64,000 nucleotides of DNA. Origin: Hyphomicrobiales bacterium. GTDB lineage: Bacteria; Pseudomonadota; Alphaproteobacteria; Rhizobiales; RI-29. The translations under genes were made by a program, and so were the position numbers. Below, piece after piece: positions 28,836 to 48,678 of this stretch. The DNA is taken from contig WGLQ01000014.1 of the NCBI GenBank assembly GCA_016125495.1, positions 124,001-188,000 on the forward strand, read 5' to 3'. Numbering within the stretch: position 1 is the first letter of the stretch; each line of letters begins with the position of its first letter. Under the pieces are notes generated by a model, which did no database searches, had not been told where the DNA came from, and worked only from the letters and a program-made list of their open reading frames with translations.

Positions 28836-29765
28836 TCAGGCGCCGGTTGCCGGGGCTGCCACACGTCGCCGCCGGGGGCCGGCGAGGGCGGCGAGGGCGA
28901 GGATGAGGCCCGAGACGGTCGCGATCATGCCGGCAGCACTGACGGAACTCTCGTAGCCGAGCCAGAGTGGGCCGTAGCCGGCGAGAACGTAGCCGGCAAG
29001 GGCGGAGACCACCGCGAATACGACACTCCACGCCACCTGCCGGGCGAGCCGGTCCGTCATGAGGCGGGCGGCGCCGGGCGGGCAGATGAACATCGCGATG
29101 ACGATGATGGAGCCGACCGCATCGAATGCGGCGACGGCGGCGACGGCGGCAGCCGCCACGAGGCCGATGGAAATGGCCCCGACCGGCAGGCCGAGGCTGG
29201 CGGCGAAGGGCTCGTCGAACGTGGCGATCTTCAGGGGGCGCCAGAAAACCGCGGTCGCCACCGCGAGCACGCCGCAGACCAGCGCCATCCGCGCCAGTTC
29301 CGGCGGCAAATCAGCGAGCGCCGCGGGGTCCACGATCGAGCCCCAACCGTCCGCCGCGATCCAGATCAGGCTCTCGACGTTGCCATAGAGCGCGTGCTCG
29401 ACATCGAGGTGGACGCTCGAGGTATCGGTCTGCTCCAGCACGAGCACACCGGCCGCGAACATCGACGTGAAGGTCACCGCCATCGCCGCACCCGGCTCGA
29501 CGCGGCCGAGACGCCGTATGGTCTCGATGAGGGCGACCGCCAGGAGCGCCGCGAGACCAGCCCCGATCAGCATCGGCCAGCTCGAAACCGTCCCGGTGAC
29601 CAGGAAGGCGCCGACGATCCCGGGCAGCACGACGTGGCTGATGGCATCTCCGACCAGCGCCTGACGGCGCAGCACGAGGAAGTTGCCGGCCAGCGCGCAG
29701 GCAACGGCGGCAAGGCTTGCGATCACCATCGGAACAAGGCTGAGCTGGACGAACTCGGTCCCCAT
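28836..29765 (-). CDS. Mn/Fe-type ABC transporter permease (second permease)
   Basis: A 309-residue ABC-3 family permease with about eight to nine hydrophobic segments, needed with the neighbouring ATPase and binding protein for divalent metal import. Family motif: LVGDAISHVVLPGIVGAFL. The ATG at 29765 has GGAG eight bases upstream and follows the stop of the first permease by four bases; a TTG at 29780 is a less likely start. It is the last gene of the four-gene operon SBP–ATPase–permease–permease on the minus strand. Such two-permease systems are typical of Sit/Mnt-type importers. Confidence 0.93.
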   Translation of the reverse strand: MGTEFVQLSLVPMVIASLAAVACALAGNFLVLRRQALVGDAISHVVLPGIVGAFLVTGTVSSWPMLIGAGLAALLAVALIETIRRLGRVEPGAAMAVTFTSMFAAGVLVLEQTDTSSVHLDVEHALYGNVESLIWIAADGWGSIVDPAALADLPPELARMALVCGVLAVATAVFWRPLKIATFDEPFAASLGLPVGAISIGLVAAAAVAAVAAFDAVGSIIVIAMFICPPGAARLMTDRLARQVAWSVVFAVVSALAGYVLAGYGPLWLGYESSVSAAGMIATVSGLILALAALAGPRRRRVAAPATGA

Positions 29766-29769
29766 GACG

Positions 29770-30984
29770 TCAAGCTCCAACCAGGGCGGGCCGCTCGAGG
29801 CGGGCGTCGACGGCGGCGAGTTCGTCGGGCGTCAGCAGCGTTTCGAGCGGGGTCAGCCCATCGTATCGACCGGCGAGCGCCTCGTCGGCCCAGAGCGCCC
29901 GCACGATCTCCCAGCGCCGCTCGTCGAGGAGCGCCTTGCCGGCATGCGCCTGGCCCTCGGGCGTTGCGACACGATCCCTTCGGATCAGCCCTTCGCGACG
30001 CAGAACCGCGAGCGTCAGCTGGTCGTGGATCGGCTCGCCGCGCGCGAGCGCGAGCAGGCCCTGACGGCGATGGACGCGAAGCTGAAAGCGGCGATGGCGC
30101 AGCACCGCCGCGAGCACACCGCGCGCCGGGGCAAAGAGCAGGGAAAACGCAAAGAGCGCGGTGGCGACCAGCACGACGATCGGCCCTGTCGGCAGACCCG
30201 GGGCGGCAGCCGAGATGGCGGCGCCGATGTAACCCGAAATCCCTCCGGCGACACCGGCCCCCCAGAGCACGCCATCGGTCCGCTCCGTCCAGAACCGCGC
30301 GGTGACGGCGGGGATGACGAGGAGCGCGACGATCAGAACGAGCCCGACGATCTTGAGACCGATGACGGTGACACCGAGGACGAGGCCCATGATCGCGAGA
30401 TCGACGGCGCGCACCGAAATGCCGCTCGCCGCCGCGAATTCGGCATCGAAGGCGACCATCGTCATCGGCCGGCGAAGGAGCGCGAGGAGAGCCACGGCGA
30501 ACGCCGCCGAGATCGCGATCAATGTGGCATCGGACAAGAGCATGCCGGCCGTGGCACCGAGCAGAAAACCCTCGAGCCCCGCCTGCCGGCCGCTGGACAT
30601 CGACTGGATGACGGTGAGGAGGACGATCCCGAAACCGAAAAAGACCGAGAGCACGGCCCCGATCGCGGCATCCTCGGGCAGGCGGGTGCGACGCGCCAGC
30701 CAATCGACGGCAACGAGGCCCAGCGCGGCCGAAAGTGCCGAGCCCAAGAGGAGGCCGGTGAGGCTTCGCCCATCGCCGCCGAGCAGCACCATGGCAATGA
30801 AGGCAAGGCCGACTCCAGGCAGCGTGGCATGGGCGAGCGCGTCGCTCACCAAGGTGCGCTTGCGCAGGAAGAGGAACGTGCCGGCGCTCCCGGCGGCAAC
30901 GCCGAGCAAGCTCGCCCCGAGCGTTGCGAGCGACGCATTGTAGCCGGATTGCAGCAGCAGGGCTGCCGTCAGCTCGTTCCACAT
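29770..30984 (-). CDS. Mn/Fe-type ABC transporter permease fused to a degenerate DtxR-like domain
   Basis: A 404-residue protein. Residues 1–~290 are an ABC-3 permease (TLVSDALAHATLPGVGLAF; GLKIVGLVLIVALLVIPAVTAR). Residues ~297–404 resemble DtxR/MntR winged-helix regulators: LRREGLIRRDRVATPEGQAHA corresponds to the wing, ERRWEIVRAL to the HRLWE helix, and PLETLLTPDELAAVDARLERP to the AE-LEH-L-x9–10-L-x-x-P region. The His ligands of those motifs are absent here, so metal sensing by the canonical sites is unlikely. A permease–DtxR fusion is known in Chlamydia (YtgCR), where the repressor part is released by cleavage. Start ATG 30984 has GAGG upstream. Confidence 0.9.
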   Translation of the reverse strand: MWNELTAALLLQSGYNASLATLGASLLGVAAGSAGTFLFLRKRTLVSDALAHATLPGVGLAFIAMVLLGGDGRSLTGLLLGSALSAALGLVAVDWLARRTRLPEDAAIGAVLSVFFGFGIVLLTVIQSMSSGRQAGLEGFLLGATAGMLLSDATLIAISAAFAVALLALLRRPMTMVAFDAEFAAASGISVRAVDLAIMGLVLGVTVIGLKIVGLVLIVALLVIPAVTARFWTERTDGVLWGAGVAGGISGYIGAAISAAAPGLPTGPIVVLVATALFAFSLLFAPARGVLAAVLRHRRFQLRVHRRQGLLALARGEPIHDQLTLAVLRREGLIRRDRVATPEGQAHAGKALLDERRWEIVRALWADEALAGRYDGLTPLETLLTPDELAAVDARLERPALVGA

Positions 30985-31060: not shown

Positions 31061-31909
31061 TCAGTCCACCGCCAGGCGAAGCTGGTCGATGTGCGCGGCC
31101 GCGAGCCGTCCACCGTAGGTCGCCTGCAGATTGGCGGCGGTGAAGGTCGCGGCGACCGGCCCCTCGGCGATGCGATGGACGTTGAGCAGCACGACGTCGT
31201 CGAAATAGGCCGCAACCGTCGCCAGGTCGTGGTGCACCGCGATGACGGTGCGCCCCTCGCCCGCAAGCCCCTTGAGAACCTCGATGATCGCCTTTTCGGT
31301 CGCGGCATCGACGCCGGCGAAGGGCTCGTCGAGCAGATAGAGGTCGGCAGCTTGGGTGAGGGCACGAGCGAGGAACACGCGCTGCTGCTGGCCACCCGAC
31401 AGCGCCCCGATCTGGCGGTCGGCAAAACCGGCCATGCCGACGCGCTCGAGGTGGTCGCGCGCACGCACGCGGTGCTGCGAGGTGATGCGCCCGACGAGCC
31501 CGAGTTCGCGGTAGAAGCCCATCAGCACGACATCGAGGACGGTGGTCGGGAAATCCCAGTCCACACTCGCGCGCTGCGGCACATAGGCGAGGCGGTGTCG
31601 CACCTCGGCGATGGGCGCGCCGAAGACGGTCGTGCGGCCGGAAACCGTCGGCACGATGCCGAGCGCAGCCTTCAGCAACGTCGACTTGCCCGCGCCATTC
31701 GGCCCGACAATGGCGGTGAGGCAGCCGGCACGGAAGGTTGCATCGACGTCGAAGAGGGCCGCGCGTTCACCGTAGCTGACCGTCATGGCGCGCACGGCGA
31801 GGGCCGCGTCATCGGCGTCGGTCGTTCCGAGTTGACGCCCTCCGTCGACCGCGAGCTTCAAATGGCCCCGCTCGCCGGTCGTTGCGCCGGTGGCGCCCGG
31901 AACCCTCAT
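31061..31909 (-). CDS. Mn/Fe-type ABC transporter ATP-binding protein
   Basis: A 282-residue ABC ATPase with Walker [10 protein letters not shown], the Q-loop region [15 protein letters not shown], signature LSGGQQQR and Walker B LYLLDEPF, then the switch His in AVHHDLATV. The PQR..VDWDFP sequence is typical of manganese/iron/zinc ABC-3 systems. The N-terminus has a ~45-residue extension before the core; I use the ATG at 31909, which overlaps the upstream binding-protein stop closely. A GAGGG ribosome-binding site precedes it. Second gene of the metal import operon. Confidence 0.93.
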
Positions 31910-31919
31910 GGCAGCACCC

Positions 31920-32948
31920 TCACCCGCCCACCGAAAGGCGTCCATTCATGCCTCGCGTCGGCGCCTTGCCACCGAGCGCGCGGGCGATCGTCGTCACGTT
32001 GTGATCGATCATCCCGGTATAAGTTCCCTCGTAAGTTCCGTCAGTGCCCATGGCGTCCGAAAAGAGTTCGCCGCCGACGACGACGCGGTGACCGCGCGCA
32101 CCGGCCCCTTCGACGAGGGCACGGATGTTGCGATCGGAAACGGAGGATTCCACGAAAACGGCACCGATGCCGCGGTTGACGAGCATGTCGACGAGCGCGG
32201 TGATCCGGTTGAGGCCGGCCTCGCTTTCGGTCGAGATGCCCTGGATGCCGACGACCTCGAAACCATAGGCGAGGCCGAAGTAACCGAAGGCGTCGTGCGC
32301 GGTGACGAGAACGCGTTGGCTCTGCGGAATACTCGTGATGGTGGCTTCGGCATATGCGGCCAGGCGGTCGATCTCGGCGAGAAGCGCTTGGCCGTTGCTG
32401 GTGAAGACATCGCGCGCCTCGGGCCGTTCCGCGATCAGCACGTCACGCACCACGACGACGACCTCGCGCCAAAGCTTCGGGTCCATCCAGATGTGCGGGT
32501 CGAACTTGTCCGGGTAGTCGGCATGCGCGCGCAGCCGGTCGCGCGCGATGAACTCCCCCACCGCGACGACCCGGCGACGCTTGGCGAGATCGCGCATGAA
32601 GTCCTCGAGCTGGGCTTCGAGGTAGAGCCCGTGCCAGAGAACGAGATCGGCACGCGTCATGGCGACGATGTCGCTGCGCGTCTGGCGGTAGGCATGCGGA
32701 TCGACGCCCGGCCCCATCAGCGCCTTGACCTCGACCTCCGCGCCACCGATGGCGCGGGCGGCATCGGCGATCATACCGGTGGTCGCGACGATGGCGAGCC
32801 GCGTTTCGCTGGCATGGGCCCGCTCCGGCGACGGCAGGGCCTGCATACTCATCACCGCGAGGCCGGCAACCACCAGGAACGCCAATGTCGACCGGCGCGT
32901 GCGGGCCATCGCTATGGGGGCCGCCGGACCAGGGCGCGTGGTGGGCAT
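31920..32948 (-). CDS. Metal ABC transporter substrate-binding protein, Mn/Fe type
   Basis: A 342-residue periplasmic cluster-A1 binding protein with a signal segment ([20 protein letters not shown]). The metal ligands follow the His-His-Glu-Asp set: His in [11 protein letters not shown], His in [11 protein letters not shown], Glu in [10 protein letters not shown] and Asp in ESSVSDRNI. This set marks TroA/PsaA/SitA-type manganese or iron proteins; zinc proteins have three His and a His-rich loop, absent here. The ATG at 32948 has GGAG eight bases upstream. First gene of the operon; a Fur-type palindrome lies about 65 bases upstream. Confidence 0.93.
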
Positions 32949-33013: not shown

Positions 33014-33030
33014 TTGCAAATCATTCGCAA
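33014..33030. promoter_or_regulatory. Candidate Fur-family (Mur/Fur) operator upstream of the metal importer
   Basis: TTGCAAAT-C-ATTCGCAA is a 17-base palindrome with one mismatched pair between 8-base arms. Its 7-1-7 core spacing is that of Fur/Mur sites. It lies 66 bases upstream of the binding-protein start, a normal operator position. In alphaproteobacteria Mur commonly represses sit/mnt operons with manganese; which regulator acts here is not shown. Confidence 0.6.
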
Positions 33031-45198: not shown

Positions 45199-45609
45199 TC
45201 ACGAGTTCGCGCACGCCGTGCATCGTCCTTTGAGCTCGATCGTGGCCCCCTCGAGCCGCATTCCGGCGCGCTCTGCGAGCTTTCCCGCGAGCGCCAGCAG
45301 ATCGGCGTCGGTGAATTCCGTCACCCGCCCGCAGGCCGTGCAGATGACGAAGGCCGCCAGATTGCGCACCTCGCATTCCGGATGGCTGCACGCGATGAAG
45401 GCATTGAGGCTTTCGATGCGATGCACGAGCCCGGCGCGCTGGAGCTTGTCGAGGGCGCGGTAGACCTGTGGCGGCGCGCGCAGCCCATCGCCGCGCAGCG
45501 CTTCGAGAATGGCATAGGCGCCGAGCGGGGTACCGGCATCCGCGAGCGTCGTCAGCACCAGGCGCTCGTTGCGCGTCAGCGTCGCCTCGCCAGGATGCGC
45601 CTCGCTCAT
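45199..45609 (-). CDS. zur: Zinc uptake regulator (Fur family)
   Basis: A 136-residue Fur-family repressor of the zinc type. The helix-turn-helix region has LRAPPQVYRALDKLQRAGLVHRIESLNAFIAC, and metal sites use ACSHPECEVRNLAAFVICTACGRVTEF with paired cysteines CSHPEC and CTAC, and a tail CTACANS. Its gene is the last of znuC-znuB-zur, overlapping znuB by four bases. With zinc bound, Zur represses znu genes; a Zur-type box lies in the divergent intergenic region. Confidence 0.93.
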   Translation of the reverse strand: MSEAHPGEATLTRNERLVLTTLADAGTPLGAYAILEALRGDGLRAPPQVYRALDKLQRAGLVHRIESLNAFIACSHPECEVRNLAAFVICTACGRVTEFTDADLLALAGKLAERAGMRLEGATIELKGRCTACANS

Positions 45610-46433
45610 CCCGTCCCCCTGCGCTTGCTATGGTCGCCGCCCGCAAAGATCGCCCCGACCGGCAACATGCACCCGAGAAAGAGCGCCAAAGCCGCCACGA
45701 CGATCGAAGGGCCGGCCGGCGTATCCCATGTGAGCGAACCAAAGAGCCCGAGTACGACCGCGAACGCCCCGCAAAGAGCCGCCACGAGCGCCATCGCCTC
45801 CGGCCCCGAAACGAGCCGGCGGGCAGCGGCTGGCGGAATGATGAGCATGGCGGTGATGAGCAGCACTCCGACGATCTTCATGGAAATGGCGATGACGAGC
45901 GCCATCAAGAGCATGAACACGAGATTCGTTCGAGCCGGCGTCATCCCCTCCGCCTCGGCGATCTCCCGGCTGACCGTCGCGGCGAAGAGGCGGCTCCAGA
46001 TGGCCGCCAGCAGCGCCAGAACCAATGCCCCACCACCCCAGATGACCAGGAGATCCTGGCTCGACACGGCAAGGATGTCGCCGAAGAGAAATCCCATCAG
46101 ATCGACCCGCACCCAAGGCATCAGACCGAGACAGACGAGCCCCAGCGCGAGCGAGGAATGAGCCAGCAGACCGAGGATCGCGTCCGAAGAAAGCGAGGCG
46201 CGACGCTGGAGTGCGAGGAGGGCCAATGCGATCAGGGCACAGACGACGAAAACCGTGCCCGTCACACTGATCTCGAAGAGCAGCGCGAGCGCCACCCCCA
46301 GCAGCGCGGAATGCGAGAGCGTGTCCCCGAAATAAGCGAGCCGGCGCCAGACGATGAAACACCCGAGCGGCCCGGCGACGAAGGCGACCCCGATTCCAGC
46401 GAGCATGGCCCGAGTGAAGAAATCATCGAGCAT
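45606..46433 (-). CDS. znuB: Zinc ABC transporter permease
   Basis: A 275-residue ABC-3 permease with about eight membrane segments. It begins MLDDFFTRAMLAGIGVAFVAGPLGCFIVWRRLAYFGDTLSHSALLGVAL, and the conserved DTLSHSALLGVAL is the family's cytoplasmic loop motif. It overlaps the znuC reading frame by 11 bases and the zur gene by four, so the operon is tightly packed. Membrane channel of the high-affinity zinc importer. Confidence 0.95.
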   Translation of the reverse strand: MLDDFFTRAMLAGIGVAFVAGPLGCFIVWRRLAYFGDTLSHSALLGVALALLFEISVTGTVFVVCALIALALLALQRRASLSSDAILGLLAHSSLALGLVCLGLMPWVRVDLMGFLFGDILAVSSQDLLVIWGGGALVLALLAAIWSRLFAATVSREIAEAEGMTPARTNLVFMLLMALVIAISMKIVGVLLITAMLIIPPAAARRLVSGPEAMALVAALCGAFAVVLGLFGSLTWDTPAGPSIVVAALALFLGCMLPVGAIFAGGDHSKRRGTG

Positions 46434-47367
46434 GGCCGCCCCCCGTCCGCCCCTCGGCACCGCCCTCGCCTGGCGAGCCGGGCGAAGGATCGGCCTTCGC
46501 GTGTCCATGGGTATGATCGTGCCCGTGCCCATGATCGTGCCCGTGCCCATGATCGTGCCCGTGATCGCAGCAGGCAGCTCCCGCCACTCCGTGTTCGGCG
46601 GCGTGGCCCGGCCCCCCGCCCCCCGGCACGATCCGACCGTCCGGCAAGTGGGCGTGGTCGTGGCGATGCTCGTAGACGGCGAGCGTTGCCGCCGCCCGCT
46701 CCCCGAAGAGTTGCCGATACTCCGCGCTCTCGGCGACCGAGGCCGGCGTGCCGCGGCAGCAGACGTGACCGTTGAGGCAGACCACATAGTCCGTCGCGGC
46801 CATCACCACGTGCAGATCGTGGGAGATCAGCAGAATACCGCAGCCGAGTTCGTCCCGGATCCGCCCGATGAGATTGTAGAGGGCGATCTCGCCGGTGTAG
46901 TCCACCCCTTGGACGGGCTCGTCCAGAACCATGAGATCCGGCTTGCGGGCGATGGCGCGAGCCAGCTGCACACGCTGGAATTCGCCGCCCGAGAGCGTGC
47001 GAACCTCGGACCCCGCCAGGTGCCCGACCGCCGTGCGCTCGAGTGCCGCCGCGATGGCGGCATCCGCGACGCCACCGGTCAACGCCATGAAACGGCGCAC
47101 CGTCAGCGGCAATGTCCAATCGACGTGCAGGCGCTGGGGCACATAGGCCACGCGCAGCCCCTCCCGGCGCCACGCCTTTCCCTCGTCCGCCGCCATCAAC
47201 CCGATGGCCAACTTGGCCGTGGTCGATTTGCCGGAGCCGTTCGGGCCGATGAGCGTGACGATCTCGCGTGGCCGCACCGTGAGTTCGACCCCGCGCACGA
47301 GCCAACGCCCGGCCCGGTGCACCCCGGCGCCATCCAAGGAAACCAATGGCGTTGTCGTCTCGCGCAT
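46423..47367 (-). CDS. znuC: Zinc ABC transporter ATP-binding protein with His-rich tail
   Basis: A 314-residue ATPase with Walker A GPNGSGKST, VPQRLHVDWTLPLTV, signature LSGGEFQR and Walker B LMVLDEPVQGVD. After the standard domain (~residue 230), a tail of about 80 residues is rich in His, Asp, Gly and Cys (CCDHGHDHGHGHDHG), encoded by an 18-bp DNA tandem repeat. Such tails probably bind Zn and may buffer or sense it. The ATG at 47367 is preferred; an in-frame GTG at 47388 is also possible. Divergent from znuA with 240 bases between. Confidence 0.95.
   Translation of the reverse strand: MRETTTPLVSLDGAGVHRAGRWLVRGVELTVRPREIVTLIGPNGSGKSTTAKLAIGLMAADEGKAWRREGLRVAYVPQRLHVDWTLPLTVRRFMALTGGVADAAIAAALERTAVGHLAGSEVRTLSGGEFQRVQLARAIARKPDLMVLDEPVQGVDYTGEIALYNLIGRIRDELGCGILLISHDLHVVMAATDYVVCLNGHVCCRGTPASVAESAEYRQLFGERAAATLAVYEHRHDHAHLPDGRIVPGGGGPGHAAEHGVAGAACCDHGHDHGHGHDHGHGHDHTHGHAKADPSPGSPGEGGAEGRTGGGHAR
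46513..46566. repeat. 18-bp tandem repeat encoding the ZnuC His-rich tail
   Basis: Three near-perfect copies of an 18-base unit (46513–46530, 46531–46548, 46549–46566, the last diverging in its final three bases). On the minus strand they encode GHDHGH-type units. Slippage here would change the number of His residues in the tail. Confidence 0.85.
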
Positions 47368-47517
47368 CCCCGTTCCCGTCCCGTCCACCAGGCCCCCGAC
47401 ATTGCCTCCGCACCGGGACTCGTCCGGTCCGGCGCTCTCCGTTGCGCCACTTCGGGGATCCGGCCGTCACCGACCGCGAGCCGTCATGCTCCGGCGATGT
47501 CTTGCAATCGCAAATAT

Positions 47518-47536
47518 CGTTATGTTATAGCATTCG
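47518..47536. promoter_or_regulatory. Candidate Zur box between znuC and znuA
   Basis: An AT-rich island contains ATGTTATAGCAT (47522–47533), nearly palindromic (10 of 12 bases match its own reverse complement), resembling the TGTTATA-type arms of Zur sites. It stands out from GC-rich flanks and lies 72 bases before the znuA start and about 155 bases before the znuC start, so it could control both. Confidence 0.65.
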
Positions 47537-47607
47537 CCACCAGACTGCCATAGCAGCGATCGCTCAGCACTACACCGGTCGCTCACCAAACGCCACGGAG
47601 GCTATTC

Positions 47608-48678
47608 GTGAGAGTGATACGAACGTTCGGGTTCTGGGTCCTCGGCGCCGGCTTGGCGCTTGCCGCAACCGGCCGATCCGCCGCAGCGGAGGCGCCGTCC
47701 GTGGTGGTCTCCATCAAGCCGATCCACTCGCTCGTCGCCGGGGTCATGGACGGCATCGGCACACCGGGGATTATCGTCGAGGGGGCGGGTTCACCGCACA
47801 CCGCCAGCCTCAAGCCGTCAAAAGCCGCTGCCATCGAAGCGGCGGGCGTGGTGTTCTGGGTCGGCCACGAACTCGAAACCTTTCTCGAGGGGCCGCTCGA
47901 ATCACTAGCCGGCAAGGCCCACGTGATCAGCCTCATCGACGCACCGGACCTCGTGCGTCACGAAATCCGCGAAGGCGGCGCATTCGAAGGTCACGCCGAC
48001 CACGACGGACACGGACACGGACACGGACACGAAGAGGCCAAGCACGACGAACACGATCACGACAAATCCAAGAACCACGATGGCCACGGCCACGGCCACG
48101 GACACGGTGAGGCAAAGCACACCGAAGCCGACCATGGGGACGGCGAACATCACGACGAAACCGACGCTCACATCTGGCTCGATCCCGCCAACGCAAAGGC
48201 GATCGTCGCGGCGGCCGCCAAGGCTCTCGCCGAGGCCGATCCGGCCAATGGCGGGCGGTACATGGCCAACGCCGCTGCGCTGCAGGCCCGCCTCGACGGG
48301 CTGACCACCGATATCGAGACCATCGTGGCGCCGGTGCGCGAGAGGCCCTTCATCGTCTTTCACGATGCCTACCAGTACTTCGAGCATCGATTCGGCCTCG
48401 CCGCGGCCGGCTCCATCACGACGAACCCCGAAGTGGCGCCCGGCGCAGAGCGGGTGACGGAGCTGCGGGCAAAGGTGCGTGAACTCGGCGCGGTCTGCGT
48501 CTTCTCCGAACCCCAATTCTCGCCCAAGATCGTCAGTGTCATCACCGAGGGAACCGGCGCGCGCACCGGCGTGCTCGATCCGCTCGGAGCCGACATCGCC
48601 GCCGGTCCGGAGCACTATTTCACGCTCATGAAGCGCAACGCCGAGGCCATCCGCGATTGCCTGACGCCGGCGAGCTGA
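47608..48678 (+). CDS. znuA: Zinc ABC transporter substrate-binding protein
   Basis: A 356-residue periplasmic protein with a signal segment (FWVLGAGLALAATGRSAAAEA). Metal His are in GSPHTASLKPS, DAHIWLDPANAK and VFHDAYQYFEHRFG, the three-His ZnuA pattern. A long His/Asp-rich loop occupies about residues 125–185 (DHDGHGHGHGH and HGHGHGEAKH), typical of zinc-specific proteins and missing in the Mn/Fe protein at 31920. Single gene, divergent from znuC-znuB-zur, likely repressed by Zur. Confidence 0.97.
   Translation: MRVIRTFGFWVLGAGLALAATGRSAAAEAPSVVVSIKPIHSLVAGVMDGIGTPGIIVEGAGSPHTASLKPSKAAAIEAAGVVFWVGHELETFLEGPLESLAGKAHVISLIDAPDLVRHEIREGGAFEGHADHDGHGHGHGHEEAKHDEHDHDKSKNHDGHGHGHGHGEAKHTEADHGDGEHHDETDAHIWLDPANAKAIVAAAAKALAEADPANGGRYMANAAALQARLDGLTTDIETIVAPVRERPFIVFHDAYQYFEHRFGLAAAGSITTNPEVAPGAERVTELRAKVRELGAVCVFSEPQFSPKIVSVITEGTGARTGVLDPLGADIAAGPEHYFTLMKRNAEAIRDCLTPAS

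Follow-up and report, generated by a model that had tools for sequence, protein, structure and literature searches.

The window considered here, a stretch of 64,000 nucleotides from a Hyphomicrobiales bacterium, contains a metal importer in which one permease carries an additional C-terminal domain, and the question that this locus raises is whether the domain is a metal-sensing repressor held at the membrane, as its likeness to DtxR might suggest, or something else. Permease-DtxR fusions have been discussed as membrane-held repressors that are freed by cleavage, and the architecture itself is already known from Chlamydia YtgCR; what is new here is a version that lacks the repressor-defining features. 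The reading that we favour, and regard as fairly probable, is that a DtxR/MntR-type repressor domain was captured by fusion to the permease of a manganese importer, lost its functions as a regulator, and now serves as a cytosolic module for protein contacts.

The first metal permease is SitC/PsaC-like and is encoded on the minus strand at 29770..30984 (404 aa plus stop, the translation being that of 29773-30984), with the ABC-3 permease (PF00950, residues 20-284, E 1.4e-51) and the DtxR-type domain that follows it contained in a single reading frame. In the full-length AlphaFold model the permease core resembles the PsaBC chains of 7KYP (best Foldseek E 1.9e-12, TM with respect to the target 0.86). 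The D48-x3-H52 motif of its transmembrane metal site (30829..30843, minus strand) is invariant in 65/65 rows, and its spacing is that of Asp46 and His50, by which Mn is coordinated in Streptococcus pneumoniae PsaBC according to the relevant part of PMC11779740. Core fold and D-x3-H motif are thus shared with PsaBC, but the matched chains, at 258-290 residues, leave no room for a tail of this kind.

The importer unit occupies 33030-28836 on the minus strand and comprises a Mur-box-like palindrome, a binding-protein gene, an ATPase gene and two ABC-3 permease genes, an arrangement that, together with the D-x3-H motif in the permease, is of the SitABCD/PsaABC type. The periplasmic metal-binding protein is SitA-like and of the ZnuA family (31920..32948, minus strand; PF01297, E 7.5e-74). 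The ATP-binding subunit is SitB-like (31061..31909, minus strand; PF00005, E 7.3e-28), its best NCBIfam match being a Mn transporter ATPase, under the cut-off. The second metal permease, SitD-like and 309 aa long, is without the tail domain (28836..29765, minus strand; PF00950, E 6.7e-38). The same gene order is found in the loci of relatives, as far as each stretch reaches.

The C-terminal domain extends over residues 290-404 (29773..30117, minus strand), as delimited by profile comparison with controls, by AlphaFold and by conservation in 103 aligned rows. A preliminary description, which had proposed a degenerate DtxR-like domain, set its start at residue 297, seven residues later; the span given there, residues 297-404 (29773-30096), does hold the quoted LRREGLIRRDRVATPEG, ERRWEIVRAL and PLETLLTPDELAAVDARLERP, and a distinct domain is confirmed. 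Its first helix (residues 290-315; 30040..30117, minus strand) forms a helix over that whole range in the model and contains the conserved VHxRQGLLALA, in which H305 is present in 96/103 rows, R307 in 99, Q308 in 98 and G309 in 97. The wing, EGLIRRDRVAT (residues 331-341; 29962..29994, minus strand), has two bridge residues in the model and is marked by D337 (98/103) and T341 (102/103). ERRWE (residues 355-359; 29908..29922, minus strand) takes the position of the HRLxE ligand motif, which carries H79 and E83 in DtxR; W358 is present in 100/103 rows. PLETLLTPDELAAVDARLERP itself (residues 379-399; 29788..29850, minus strand) corresponds in position to the EH ligand motif together with the following helix. 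Taken over the 103 rows, the positions conserved throughout the tail are H305, R307, Q308, G309, D337, T341, G344, D354, W358 and D387. When 65 tails were used with AlphaFold the pLDDT was 89.3, with helices at 2-27, 34-42, 54-76, 81-85, 92-95 and 98-109 of the tail model, the wing, which is short, falling between 42 and 54. In the full-length model the last membrane helix (266-284) is separated from helix 290-315 by a link of five residues, so that the domain would be held near the membrane.

The likeness to DtxR emerges from profile comparison. Using hhalign, an alignment of 103 tails (83 after filtering) matched 16 DtxR/MntR-type proteins with a score of 36.4 and a probability of 81% over 97 columns, the motifs keeping an identical order; the reversed profile scored 12.2 and the best of 200 column shuffles 20.4. 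The 8 FeoA-DtxR-type proteins alone gave 59%, a moderate value, and the 8 MntR-type proteins alone 3%, a poor one, and the support therefore comes mainly from the FeoA-DtxR-type sequences. When the model was compared with 158 chains using VIA, rows 1-28 were all DtxR-family (Z 7.0 to 5.5, with 91-101 of 116 residues aligned). Because a Z of about 7 is middling by the tool's own note, what carries the case for DtxR is that motif order, profile score and fold agree. Together these suggest a DtxR/MntR-type fold, with a likeness that is above chance and of moderate strength and to which the AlphaFold model lends less strong support. As in the DtxR, MntR and IdeR repressors, a helix, a wing, a long helix and a helical second domain follow one another in the same order; unlike them, the tail is without the His and Cys ligands, has one helix fewer before the wing and is joined to a membrane protein.

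Between the wing Thr and the EH motif the profile alignment is ungapped, and it pairs the tail with DtxR as E355/H79, E359/E83, Y374/H98, T378/C102, E381/E105 and T382/H106. We take the ligands of DtxR/MntR to be numbered M10/D8, E11, H79/H77, E83, H98, C102/E99, E105/E102 and H106/H103; among PDB entries there are titles that refer to DtxR mutated at H79, M10 and C102 and to MntR mutated at E11. The ligand places at 308 and 311 (Q308 falling on M10/D8) follow from the VIA ranges on the assumption that these start without a gap. With that placement, neither His nor Cys was found at any of the eight ligand places in any of the 103 aligned homologues. The loss of the His ligands, which the preliminary description had claimed, is therefore real, being neither the product of misalignment nor confined to the genome of the window, and the tail has neither the metal site of DtxR/MntR nor the conserved ligands of YtgCR. 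At four of these places acidic residues are common: 355 is E in 95/103 rows and never His, a carboxylate is found at 359 in 63/103 rows, and residue 381 is E in 88/103 and D in 7/103. Residue 382 is never His, being T in 39 rows, D in 19 and E in 19, with Thr in the window. Since carboxylates are frequent at 355, 359, 381 and 382, metal binding through other ligands is conceivable. The standalone DtxR-type proteins of loci L127-L143, of about 220-230 aa and from Pseudomonadota, have intact HRLAE and EFEH-type motifs, and carry an extra C-terminal part that by eye is FeoA-like.

The part of the domain that precedes the wing is shortened as well. The distance between residue 308 and Gly 344 of the wing is 36 residues in 98/103 rows (range 33-40). 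In standalone proteins the corresponding distance, counted from the ligand in helix 1 to that Gly, is 55 in three of FeoA-DtxR type and 58 in three of MntR type, so the tail is some 20 residues short at this point. Two helices precede the wing in the model, against three in DtxR, and a complete helix-turn-helix before the wing is not found. The two methods place the first helix differently, hhalign laying residue 307 onward, without a large gap, on the template stretch after helix 1, and VIA beginning its alignment at helix 1 of the chain; they accordingly differ on which helix is missing and agree that one is gone. Metal site and DNA-binding half have therefore both changed, the one by ligand loss and the other by shortening. 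The suggestion made at the outset that the domain could still bind DNA thus finds no support, given the roughly 20 residues missing before the wing, the two helices, and control elements for the operon that are separate from the tail.

Those control elements are of two kinds. Upstream of the operon is the Mur-box-like palindrome TTGCGAATGATTTGCAA (33014..33030, read on the minus strand), the only site with one mismatch or fewer to TTGCNAATNATTNGCAA in the 4,054,688-base (4.05 Mb) genome. Among relatives, a box with at most three mismatches is present in 69/70 loci without an adjacent MntR gene and in 0/6 with one (Fisher p 3e-8, although the loci are not independent), the limit of three having been chosen after inspection of the table and being reached in 12/1520 composition shuffles. 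The count covers 76 of the 81 named loci, L048, L062, L087, L095 and L096 being omitted because in these the sequence starts within the binding-protein gene or beyond it; L119, which has a weak and distant DtxR-type match, is counted as being without an adjacent MntR, and L073 has neither box (four mismatches) nor adjacent MntR. The MntR-adjacent, box-less loci are L080, L085, L106, L111, L124 and L158 of Azospirillum ramasamyi, and the regulator has thus apparently been exchanged between lineages. Box-bearing and MntR-adjacent loci alike have the tail. The genome of the window itself has no match to PF02742, one match to PF01325 under the cut-off, and three Fur-family genes.

A second metal ABC locus in the window (45199-48678) looks like ZnuABC with Zur. 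It consists of a Fur-family gene (45199-45609), an ABC-3 permease (45606-46787, a mechanically called reading frame of uncertain start) and an ATPase (46423-47388, start likewise uncertain), all on the minus strand, with a divergent ZnuA-type binding protein at 47608-48678 on the plus strand. A separate Zn-type operon with its own Fur-family gene leaves Mn or Fe for the first importer, and from this, the Mur-box-like site and the MntR neighbours of relatives we predict that the substrate is probably Mn(II). The part of PMC4334477 concerned marks mur and sitABCD as validated by experiment in Ruegeria pomeroyi, and the corresponding part of PMC6956336 describes SitABCD of Rhodobacter sphaeroides as a Mn importer under Mur control. 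These Rhodobacteraceae systems share with the window the four-gene operon and the Mur-box-like site. The tail goes unmentioned for either Sit system in those portions of the two papers, but it is present in the Ruegeria loci L093, L109 and L125, which probably places it in organisms with good genetics.

The domain shows no sign of decay, and to call it degenerate, as had been proposed, is misleading. Its median dN/dS is 0.106, against 0.100 for the membrane core, with 0.371 the highest value in the tail (187 usable of 201 pairs from 60 loci, the pairs overlapping and thus not independent), so that it is conserved under purifying selection similar to that on the core. Tail-bearing orthologues occur in Rhodobacteraceae, Hyphomicrobiales and Azospirillum. 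A match that extends to residue 396 or beyond was found in 9/61 genomes, the window's own included; the tail profile matched at E up to 0.001 in 15/385 genomes of the class, and at E up to 0.01 in 24/398, of which the four weakest, partial ones were set aside as probable chance, leaving 20. The best 80 of at least 565 relatives, which are the named loci, are all permeases of 396-409 aa and all have the tail, although these loci lean to close relatives since the best matches were found by membrane-core patterns. L177 and L178, two genomes outside the class but in the same phylum (family f241), contain the tail with strong scores and are candidates for horizontal transfer.

A tree of the membrane part, built from 29 of the 103 tail-bearing rows, 21 tail-less permeases and two others, clusters the tail-bearing permeases and places the tail-less L011 inside them on a long branch (support 89/87). 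This permease, which was left out of the 103-row alignment for want of a tail, is the closest tail-less one, with 293 aa and 46-47% identity, and has probably lost its tail secondarily; one gain and one loss of the tail is the simplest reading of these sequences. The tail is then not indispensable everywhere. The first permeases of Deinococcus and Halomonas adjoin the tail-bearing group in this tree.

It is the combination of DtxR-like order, ligand loss, the loss of about 20 residues, conservation and separate transcriptional control elements that leads us to propose fusion followed by loss. On this proposal a DtxR/MntR-type repressor domain would have been joined to the permease of a manganese importer, and would then have lost the canonical metal ligands and part of its DNA-binding half, while the promoter would be run by the Mur-box-like site or an adjacent MntR instead of the tail. 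The domain would lie on the cytosolic face directly after the last membrane helix, as the model suggests, and would work through contacts within the importer, whether to its ATPase or to the partner permease. Assembly, coupling or transport feedback, and not transcription, may be set in this way. That the tail regulates through protein contacts is plausible. A more specific form, in which the captured sensor has become a module for Mn feedback at the level of transport, acting either by touching the ATPase or by means of a carboxylate site that has been rebuilt, with the promoter left to Mur or MntR, is put forward tentatively, as one possibility. In this way a broad alphaproteobacterial group would keep a fusion from which the repressor features have been removed and whose promoter is under another kind of element, and this pairing provides a natural test of the role of the fused domain in transport.

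Among the alternatives, the one that fares best is a passive structural tail that stabilises the permease or the docking of the ATPase, with no part in sensing or control. Such a tail would have little call for the canonical ligands, which are absent, or for the DNA-binding half, which is shortened, and the one apparent loss inside the tail-bearing group, in L011, is in keeping with it. The conserved VHxRQGLLALA, RYDGL and TxDEI, together with a dN/dS as low as that of the core, nevertheless ask for more than a spacer while being compatible with one, and we consider this explanation rather doubtful. A special case of our preferred reading, the rebuilding of an oxygen-rich metal sensor in which transport is gated by Mn(II) or Fe(II) bound to E355, E381 and D387 together with H305 or Q308, draws on the high conservation of just these residues (95, 95 as E or D, 102, 96 and 98 of 103 rows respectively), two of which, 355 and 381, are at DtxR ligand positions, and on D or E at residue 382 in 38 rows. 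It is quite unlikely in our judgement, as the ligand places of DtxR hold no His or Cys, residue 382 of the window is Thr, and conservation of residues has other possible causes.

It might also be argued that the tail is unrelated to DtxR, a small helical or winged domain that merely looks alike, and several searches would agree with this. The tail alone matched nothing in Pfam at E values up to 1, PF00950 covering only residues 20-284 of the protein, and the single NCBIfam match (E 0.065) was far under its cut-off, so that the domain goes unrecognised in scans of both collections. Against PDB sequences, single-sequence phmmer returned nothing up to E 10, and each of two tail profiles returned one chance-like match (E 2 and 0.91). 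Foldseek of the domain against the PDB gave no hit at E up to 0.001, the best being E 0.99, and in the VIA ranking the DtxR rows are followed by a MarR-type chain (Z 5.4, rmsd 8.9). Pfam scans of 9 and of 65 tail members yielded scattered weak matches only, but one of these is to PF02742 itself, in the diverged member L044 (positions 1-49 of 70, E 0.014, under the curated cut-off). The relation to DtxR that the preliminary description assumed is thus upheld by an hhalign score above chance and by the VIA ranking, and not by the family and PDB sequence searches, which give no significant match. With the same motif order over 97 columns, a score well above the shuffles and 28 leading rows that are all DtxR-family, we regard an unrelated domain as very improbable.

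The closest described counterpart is the YtgC-YtgR fusion of Chlamydia (YtgCR; CT069), whose DtxR-type C-terminal part, according to the pertinent part of PMC5599777, has conserved metal ligands and is cleaved off, the freed YtgR binding the ytg promoter with Fe(II), or with Zn(II) according to another group; the same portion of that paper reports permease-repressor fusions in 11 phyla. Both systems join a DtxR-type domain to the C-terminus of a metal permease in a four-gene ABC importer operon, but on comparison with the description in that portion the tail in the window is without the His and Cys ligands and without part of the DNA-binding half, and its operon has other control elements. Start-like codons from which an internal start might free the domain occur in at most 64/103 rows between residues 255 and 324, and none is conserved near the domain start. 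That the tail is a latent repressor, cleaved off like YtgR to act on its own operon or on other genes, has this precedent and its spread over phyla in its favour, but with a shortened DNA-binding half, lost ligands, retention of the tail alongside a Mur-box-like site or an adjacent MntR, and no conserved start codon near the domain, it is hardly credible. The caution that follows is that not every permease-DtxR fusion is a transcription factor. We found no description of a ligand-less permease-DtxR fusion in the open-licence literature as judged by titles and the beginnings of abstracts. Among 299 Pseudomonadota genomes, intact fusions were sought as PF02742 matches in open frames of more than 283 aa; none was above the cut-off, and two weak matches under it belong to frames that are 854 and 856 aa long.

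Plasmids also carry such fusions, among them the tails of Deinococcus and Halomonas and a permease from Azospirillum that is of the same type as the one in the window, with 72% identity over 98%. There are further long matches on plasmids, for example in Microvirga; a scan of viral contigs found no relative. The second permease of Deinococcus deserti (L160:3906-4997) and the first permease of Halomonas sp. PA16-9 (L157:3911-5011) have winged-helix-like tails which, like that of the window, are of cytosolic type and attached to a metal permease in an operon of the same kind. In contrast to the tail in the window, their stretch from helix 1 to the wing has roughly the full length seen in DtxR (59 and 60 residues, as counted in manually cut strings), the proteins end before the metal-binding half of DtxR, and the Deinococcus tail sits on the second permease. 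The Deinococcus protein was matched to residue 351 or beyond, and so into the tail, at three further plasmid places, two in Deinococcus and one in Paracoccus aestuarii.
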